The notes below the pieces were generated by a model. The model was not told the origin of the DNA and ran no database searches. It saw only the letters and a program-made list of their open reading frames with translations. From Methylovulum sp. (GTDB lineage Bacteria > Pseudomonadota > Gammaproteobacteria > Methylococcales > Methylomonadaceae), in NCBI RefSeq assembly GCF_028687615.1, contig NZ_JAQTZU010000010.1, positions 62,001 through 126,000 on the forward strand: a stretch of DNA of 64,000 bases. Reading direction: 5' to 3'. This document shows, one piece after another, positions 12,783 to 60,067 of this stretch (its first letter is position 1; each line of letters begins with the position of its first letter). A program made the translations under genes and the position numbers.

Positions 12783-12941
12783 GTTCGTGTTTTAAAAGTC
12801 TCGATTTAGTAAAAATTGGTCACAATCAACTGGGTTGCCCGAACGTAACATTGGAAAATTGGATGAAATCACCTTGTTTCAAGATGAATTTGATCTAAAA
12901 AACCTCAGTTTTCACCACCGCCGTACTTTTAAAACACGCAC
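12783..12941 (+). mobile_element. 159-bp MITE, copy 1 (target duplication TTA)
   Basis: Terminal inverted repeats GTGCGTGTTTTAAAAGT (left end carries GTT for GTG) bound a 159-bp non-coding body. TTA occurs directly before and after it, consistent with a 3-bp target-site duplication. A second copy at 58616-58773 is in inverted orientation and differs by about one base in the ends and one A in a run. Confidence 0.85.
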
Positions 12942-56229: not shown

Positions 56230-56830
56230 CGAAGTGCCATACGGCCTCTTGCTCTTGTTCAGCAAAAACACCGCATGGGATGTTTGGTAATTGAGTGATT
56301 TTCGTGGGCGGTGGTTCAGCTTGTACATCACCGCTTCAACGTCCGCATCCGTGATATTCTCAAAACTGCTCCCTCTAGCGCCCCGTGTGGGCATTGGTAA
56401 AGTGTTGCCTGGTCAACCCGTTGGTGTTTTCATTTAAACCGCGCTCCCACGAATGGTAGGGATGCGCAAAACACACCTCCGCATTGAGATGTGCCTTGAT
56501 GGTTTCATGTCCGGCGGACTCCCTGCCGTTATCGGCGGTGATCGTCAACGCCTTGTCCAGATAAGGCTTGGGCAAAATAACCGTCGCTTCCGTGACGGCT
56601 TTGGCATGTTTGCCGTCTACTTTTTTAATCAAGGTGAATTGTCCTTAGACCACACTTGAGGTGGGACACCCTGTCCACTATCGTCACCAGTGCACCCTGA
56701 TGGTTCTGGCCTATCCACTGTGTCGATCCCCCAGTCGCCCATGGGGGGGGGCTTTTCCTCGACGATGGCGGGACGCCCATCAATACTGACACAGTTTCTG
56801 ATTTGTCCACGCTTATCCCTTGTGCCAGTT
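56230..56830 (-). pseudogene. IS30-family transposase, frameshifted fragment
   Basis: Pieces in three frames line up with the C-terminal integrase domain of IS30 transposases: VSIDGRPAIVEEKSP, then QWIGQNHQGALVTIVDRVSH, KKVDGKHAKAVTEATVILPK, ITADNGRESAGHETIKAHLN, SWERGLNENTNGL and NITDADVEAVMYKLNHRPRK. A run of G at about 56748 and the region near 56390 carry frameshifts. The N-terminal helix-turn-helix is missing. It adjoins the decayed 3' end of the phage gene at 56904. Inactive. Confidence 0.85.
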
Positions 56831-57961: not shown

Positions 57962-58496
57962 ATGGAAAATCAGCATCTTAAGTCCAGATTGGCTGAGTTT
58001 AACCAAGCTGATGTACGGTTACGCATCCTACAAATCTTGACCGGCCGCCAAGCAATGCCAGTAATCAAGCAGTGTTACTCTATGCCTTGCGCGAGCAAGG
58101 CCAAGCCATCAGCCATGACTGGCTCTATGTGGAATTGCCGTGGCTTCAGCAGGTGGCGGGTGTTTTAGTTTATCAGTACGCAGGCGGGGCGCATGTTGCC
58201 CAATTGGGCAATAAGGGTTTGGATGTGGTGAATGATCTATTAGCCATTCCCGGCATCCGCAGGCCAGCGCCTGACGAGCTATTCAGGGCAAGCGCATATA
58301 AATCAATCAAAATATCAATAAGTTATGTTATTTAAGGCTTTACCATAATGAATTGAGCGTCCATCGTTGCCGATGGTATCAACAAACAAGCTGATTATCA
58401 CTGTCTTATACATAACTTGTCCGGCTGTATCCTATAAGTCTTTGATTGTTTGAAAATTTTATATGCGCTTGCCCTGACGAGCTATTCTGTTTTTAG
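57962..58496 (+). pseudogene. VpaChn25_0724-type phage protein, copy 2 (frameshift plus insertion)
   Basis: ENQHLKSRLAEFNQADVRLR ILQIL in one frame, then LLYALREQGQAISHDWLYVE LPWLQQV and QLGNKGLDVVNDLLAIPGIR in the next; one base is lost near 58045. The last codons are displaced by a 191-bp element at 58285-58475; joined across its 12-bp duplication the gene would end PDELFCF-stop at 58496. Homologous to the copy at 56904 on the other strand. Confidence 0.7.
58285..58475. mobile_element. 191-bp MITE with 12-bp direct repeats
   Basis: Inverted ends AGGGCAAGCGCATATAAA/TTTATATGCGCTTGCCCT bound a non-coding AT-rich body. GACGAGCTATTC flanks both sides (58273-58284, 58476-58487). A target duplication of 10-12 bp is typical of IS4/IS231-type transposases. 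A loose hairpin GTCCATCGTTGCCGATGG lies inside. Confidence 0.85.
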
Positions 58497-58523: not shown

Positions 58524-58885
58524 ATGAGCGAAACTAAACCACAACTGCAATTACTGCCTTGCCCATTTTGTGGCGGTGAAGCGGTACTAAAACAAGGGTT
58601 TACCGGATTTCCTGAGTGCGTGTTTTAAAAGTACGGCGGTGGTGAAAACTGAGGTTTTTAGATCAAATTCATCTTGAAACAAGGTGATTTCATCCAATTT
58701 TCCAATGTTACGTTCGGGCAACCCAGTTGATTGTGACCAATTTTTACTAAATCGAGACTTTTAAAACACGCACTGAAGCTTATATAGTTTTTTGTCCCGA
58801 TAAAAGCCGTAATGTGATGATGCTTGGTGTTGATTTAAATTAGGATGATATTGTGAAAGCATGGAATAGACGCGTTAATTCCTAA
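58524..58885 (+). pseudogene. Lar-type (restriction alleviation) zinc-ribbon gene split by a MITE
   Basis: SETKPQLQLLPCPFCGGEAV is the Lar-family start with a CPFCG zinc knuckle. The frame is broken at 58616 by the second copy of the 158-bp MITE. Removing the element and one TGA duplication restores PEAYIVFCPDKSRNVMMLGV, then an in-frame TAG, then DDIVKAWNRRVNS, the typical Lar ending. So the gene has both an insertion and an amber codon. Lar proteins of phages protect against type I restriction. Confidence 0.75.
58616..58773 (-). mobile_element. 158-bp MITE, copy 2 (target duplication TGA)
   Basis: Same element as 12783-12941 in the opposite orientation, with perfect 17-bp ends GTGCGTGTTTTAAAAGT/ACTTTTAAAACACGCAC. 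TGA stands on both sides. The exact ends are confirmed by restoration of the host reading frame when it is removed. Confidence 0.92.
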
Positions 58886-59392: not shown

Positions 59393-60067
59393 TTACCAAT
59401 AATCCGGCTTAACGGCTGGTTTTTTCTTGGTTGGCACTTTGTCGGGCAATTGGAATTGTTTCAGTTCATCTTCCAAAATGTAAGAACGTGTCCAGTTAGC
59501 CAAATTTGACAAGCTGGCATTCGCTGGTCGATGCTCGTTTTTGCTTGGTACTCTTCTCGGCAAAATCAGGCCAATGGGATAATCGGGAAAATCTTGTTTT
59601 AGAAACGCCAAAGCGGGGACAAGGTCAGAATCACTGGAAACCAAAACGCCATGCTCACAATGCTTAAGGACGGCATCACGATAGAGTTGCAGGGCAATAT
59701 TCACATCGGTTTGTTTTTCCTCAAGCCGCCACACTTCCACACGGTCTTGCTTGTCAATGGGGTTTTTATAGCGGGGCGGATTGCCTTTTTCCAGAATATA
59801 GTAACCATTAATGATTTCTAAAGTCTGGGGGTGTTTACTTAATAGGGCTTTGTGATAACTATCTTGGGATTGCTGGGCTTTATCGCCCCTGGTGGCTACG
59901 CGGGTTATTACGGGGGCGGTAAAGAATTTAACCGCGACAACATCCAGTTGTGGGTTTACATGGCAAATGTGCTTAACCAAGCTGGCAACATCTAGCCATT
60001 TGTAAGCCGTGTTTCTGAGCACACCAAAATAAAAGTTGTACCCGTCAATATAAACAATCGTCCGCAT
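59393..60067 (-). CDS. NYN-domain (PIN-like) putative ribonuclease
   Basis: A 224-aa protein: VYIDGYNFYFGVLRN carries the first acidic residue, EEKQTDVNIALQLYRDAV the central one and GVLVSSDSDLVPALAFLKQD the last pair, the LabA/DUF88-type NYN active site. PTKKKPAVKP at the C-terminus is a basic tail that could bind RNA. Stand-alone, between a tRNA attachment scar and mazEF, so a mobile-island cargo gene. Other possibilities are an RNA-processing or defence nuclease. Confidence 0.75.
   Translation of the reverse strand: MRTIVYIDGYNFYFGVLRNTAYKWLDVASLVKHICHVNPQLDVVAVKFFTAPVITRVATRGDKAQQSQDSYHKALLSKHPQTLEIINGYYILEKGNPPRYKNPIDKQDRVEVWRLEEKQTDVNIALQLYRDAVLKHCEHGVLVSSDSDLVPALAFLKQDFPDYPIGLILPRRVPSKNEHRPANASLSNLANWTRSYILEDELKQFQLPDKVPTKKKPAVKPDYW

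Follow-up and report, generated by a model that had tools for sequence, protein, structure and literature searches.

Prokaryotic MITEs that are mobilised in trans by insertion sequences (ISs) measure 50–500 bp (reviewed in PMC10969869). Members of the IS1031 group of the IS5 family insert at TNA and produce 3-bp repeats; for instance, ISLrh is an 857-bp member of this group with the 17-bp inverted repeat GAACCTGTCTAGTATCT and a TGA site (PMC12016507). The element described here, which lies in a 64,000-nucleotide stretch of DNA from a Methylovulum sp. (hereinafter the window), recalls both. Like the trans-mobilised MITEs (PMC10969869), it is small, has inverted ends and target duplications, occurs in several copies and has no transposase; like the IS1031 group (e.g., ISLrh), it displays 17-bp inverted ends, a TNA target and a 3-bp duplication. 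In contrast to ISLrh, it is only 158 bp long and without a gene, and its end sequence is not that of ISLrh. We found no published name for the family to which it belongs, the GTGCG-type MITE family.

The element occupies positions 58616–58773 (forward strand) of the window, as delimited by its copies, in the host as well as in related genomes, and by their common ends. Its perfect 17-bp terminal inverted repeats are GTGCGTGTTTTAAAAGT on the left (58616–58632, forward strand) and the same 17 bp on the reverse strand on the right (58757–58773), where the window reads ACTTTTAAAACACGCAC; on both sides stands a TGA, a TNA site (58613–58615 and 58774–58776, without strand), just as the first-pass annotation had described from this sequence. 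Its length is within the 50–500 bp of MITEs, slightly below the usual 159–160 bp of the family because its T run lacks one base, and it has no open frame capable of encoding a transposase. The end 17-mer occurs four times in the window at ≤3 mismatches, versus 0.47 expected by shuffling, and two of these occurrences are the ends of a second copy of the same MITE (12783–12941, reverse strand; 159 bp), with a TAA duplication in the orientation of the element.

The first-pass annotation had proposed searching the genome and its relatives for the element. In the host assembly, a draft of 3.49 Mb in 56 contigs, we recovered nine complete or near-complete copies, 84–100% identical to the window copy, along with fragments. 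Equal TNA triplets surround all eight two-ended host copies (TGA, TGA, TAA, TTA, TAA, TAA, TTA, TTA), so that the family recurs at different sites with target duplications. Matches were also present in 13 of 237 genomes of the family, spanning three genera: copies occur in eight genomes of the same genus and in two other genera, in one of which they are mostly 69–75% identical. The terminal inverted repeats agree at 17 of 17 positions in 16 of the 20 two-ended copies and at 15–16 of 17 in the remaining four. The borders GTGCG...CGCAC, differences in which had been named as grounds for rejecting the proposed ends, recur on the intact full-length copies of the host genome and the genus, a few of which differ by a single base at an end. 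In relatives, most copies with two ends likewise lie between equal TNA triplets, the exceptions being four divergent copies with unequal TNA triplets and one with ATA/ATA. Searches of public genome records with the MITE core pattern gave three matches, all in Methylococcaceae or Methylobacter; the core had no match in viral contigs, and the MITE had none in plasmids. The host copy on contig C41 is a special case: its left flank, which by eye resembles a transposase gene, and its right flank match different places in relatives, so its matching TGA pair may come from recombination, and an empty site built from its joined flanks was rejected on the same ground. Another copy of the MITE (genome G000, contig C30, 71635–71793) adjoins the 3′ portion of a gene for an IS481-type transposase, which it apparently interrupts.

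A clean natural empty site for the family comes from a copy nested in an IS5-family IS of a relative, G002. There, the MITE sits at codons 2–3 of the transposase gene in the context ATGTC-TAA-[159 bp]-TAA-ACG, whereas the IS of a second relative, G001, is uninterrupted at the corresponding site (ATGTCCAAACG); the difference in length between the two is the element plus 3 bp. At the level of sequence comparison, this nested copy, together with the sister copies, fixes both the ends and the 3-bp duplication. The same observations bear on the idea that the 158-bp segment is maintained as a structured repeat with a function of its own, such as a terminator or a small RNA, rather than one spread by transposition. 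Its single-strand fold is indeed better than those of shuffled sequences (z = –3.76); however, paired ends alone favour such a fold, Rfam contains no match to the MITE, copies with target duplications are found inside genes (among them lar and the gene of an IS5 transposase) and next to a fragment of an IS481 transposase, and the comparison of G002 with G001 displays a clean insertion of the element and 3 bp. We consider this idea extremely improbable.

In the window, the element interrupts a lar-type gene, as had been proposed earlier. The 5′ part (58524–58615, forward strand) contributes 30 whole codons before the junction and then runs into a TAA inside the MITE; the 3′ part (58777–58885, forward strand) contains an amber TAG at 58841–58843 and the stop at 58883–58885. 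Joining the flanks with a single TGA yields MSETKPQLQLLPCPFCGGEAVLKQGFTGFPEAYIVFCPDKSRNVMMLGVDLN(TAG)DDIVKAWNRRVNS. On its own, the N-terminal piece reaches 24.5 bits with the Pfam Lar profile, under the cut-off of 28.6, whereas the joined frame scores 32.3 bits over profile positions 2–57 of 58 (PF14354) and matches phrog_599; an alignment to a phage Lar protein also spans the junction (38% over 65 aa). Thus, the full domain of the Lar restriction alleviation proteins (PF14354, phrog_599) is covered solely when the gene is read across the junction, and unlike those proteins, the window version is interrupted by both the MITE and an amber codon. The earlier proposal that excision restores the gene stands as regards the reading frame, which does open, and fails as regards repair: with the TAG lying past the junction, lar is broken twice, excision would not mend it, and we class it as a pseudogene. 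The first-pass annotation had also taken the restored frame to fix the ends and the duplication with unusual certainty. Both are correct; nevertheless, the certainty drawn from the frame was too strong, since 158 and 161 both leave a remainder of 2 on division by three, and removing either length opens the same frame, so that frame restoration alone fixes neither. More generally, a duplication of a multiple of three bases cannot be established by restoring a frame on paper. A search of the 237 family genomes at E≤0.001 recovered neither a close lar homologue nor an empty lar site, and the site was compared solely with distant phage Lar proteins; related strains with a lar gene lacking the restored frame, which had been named as counter-evidence, were not encountered. 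Frames next to lar match phage families (the repressor-like phrog_3037, and phrog_436), in keeping with decayed prophage surroundings.

Several further features accompany this part of the window. A separate 191-bp element lies just upstream of lar (58285–58475; ends AGGGCAAGCGCATATAAA) between perfect 12-bp duplications (GACGAGCTATTC; 58273–58284 and 58476–58487); the host has one full copy of it, plus a 43-bp match on contig C10. A fragment of an IS30 family transposase is encoded at 56375–56632 on the reverse strand (NF033563, 82.7 bits versus a cut-off of 80), and an NYN-domain protein (PF01936; also matching phrog_7929) at 59393–60067, again on the reverse strand. The segment 59176–59222 resembles a reversed tRNA 3′ end (TGGAGCTAGTGGGGGGAATCGAACCC) and is perhaps an attachment site; neither ARAGORN nor Rfam called a tRNA gene there.

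The first-pass annotation had left the transposase family unnamed and had proposed looking for a full-length IS with the same ends. Such elements are present in relatives, outside the host assembly, as IS5-family ISs of 880–887 bp with the ends of the MITE and TNA duplications. That of G001 is 887 bp long, with ends GTGCGTGTTTTAAAAGTAGCC / GTGCGTGTCTCAAAAGGTCCC, a TTA duplication and a 267-aa transposase; similar ones measure 886 bp (TCA duplication) and 880 bp (TGA duplication), and TTA, TAA, TCA and TGA all occur among the duplications of the IS copies, the 3-bp TNA pattern of the IS1031 group. The transposase of the autonomous IS scores 203.9 bits against NF033580 IS5_3 (cut-off 110) and combines PF13340 (DUF4096) with the IS5-type DDE domain PF01609 (DDE_Tnp_1); its one named IS relative is ISAli1, at 47% identity. 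In carrying a 267-aa DDE transposase this autonomous relative resembles the IS1031 group, and it differs from ISLrh in having one ORF instead of two overlapping ones. Given the TNA and 3-bp rule of that group (PMC12016507), the partner IS most likely belongs to it, as judged from the duplication and the family model rather than from an ISfinder comparison. A 745-bp IS with matching ends on contig C40 of G007 was rejected as an intact partner, its gene being degenerate.

Beyond the ends, the MITE body resembles none of the IS bodies found, and in this the element departs from other trans-mobilised MITEs, its link to an IS running via the ends alone. We also considered whether the MITE arose from an IS by internal deletion; similarity of the body and subterminal regions was mostly at shuffle level (with a few low p-values in 40 comparisons), leaving such a descent unsupported. 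One might hence suppose that an unrelated transposase family, itself producing 3-bp duplications, moves the MITE and that the resemblance of its ends to those of IS5 arose by convergence, a reading with which the lack of an intact IS5_3 transposase in the host assembly also agrees. We hold this to be very unlikely: complete IS5_3 elements of the same genus and family have the 16–17-bp end sequence of the MITE, its preference for TNA and its duplication length, and related ends with TNA recur in two IS5_3 elements of cyanobacterial plasmids (GAGGATGTTTTAAAAGT with TCA, and GAGGGTGTTTATAAATAA with TTA).

Within the host's 56 draft contigs, we found no intact IS5_3 transposase. Contig C50 retains a fossil, namely the last 27 aa of a transposase followed by a decayed IS end, and C19 has a transposase fragment under the cut-off that does not resemble the partner IS. 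The lone end matches on C14, C15, C43 and C46 were examined for a full IS, and no transposase frame appeared beside the four loci for which frames were listed. With only the fossil 3′ end remaining, the MITE looks orphaned in this assembly. A collapsed IS repeat could be hidden by the draft assembly, but IS ends were seen at none of the host contig ends, in contrast to G003 and G010. The host additionally possesses a second MITE family of 129–240 bp (e.g., L052–L062), with GAACGTGTTTTAAAAG ends and equal TNA triplets in 14 of 14 copies examined. The bodies of the two families (158–160 bp with GTGCG ends, and 129–240 bp with GAACG ends) are unrelated; however, CGTGTTTTAAAAG forms the core of the ends in both, and both lie at TNA sites, which suggests the same or a related enzyme for both. 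That a single lost IS5 enzyme served both families, leaving an orphan MITE community in a transposase-less genome, is a more tentative proposal, which we rather doubt.

The sequences themselves show where the element ends, that it is present in multiple copies between TNA duplications, that an autonomous IS has matching ends, and that one empty site exists. We interpret these observations, with a probability of roughly 0.93, as a non-autonomous MITE of an IS5-family, IS1031-like IS, inserted by a trans-acting transposase into a TGA site in lar. An IS5-type DDE transposase supplied in trans would recognise the 17-bp ends, cut the element there and, following established IS5 biology, join it to a staggered TNA target; insertion at the TGA in the lar-type gene, within a prophage-like region that has decayed, would then duplicate 3 bp. 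The transposase was presumably supplied by the partner IS or a similar one, now lost from the host with a fossil left behind. The insertion would have ended lar after 30 codons, and the separate amber mutation breaks the gene too. The window MITE is ordinary in kind and otherwise a matter of routine annotation; what it adds for methanotrophs (Methylococcaceae) is an IS5-linked MITE family with its ends, its target rule and a likely source of its transposase.
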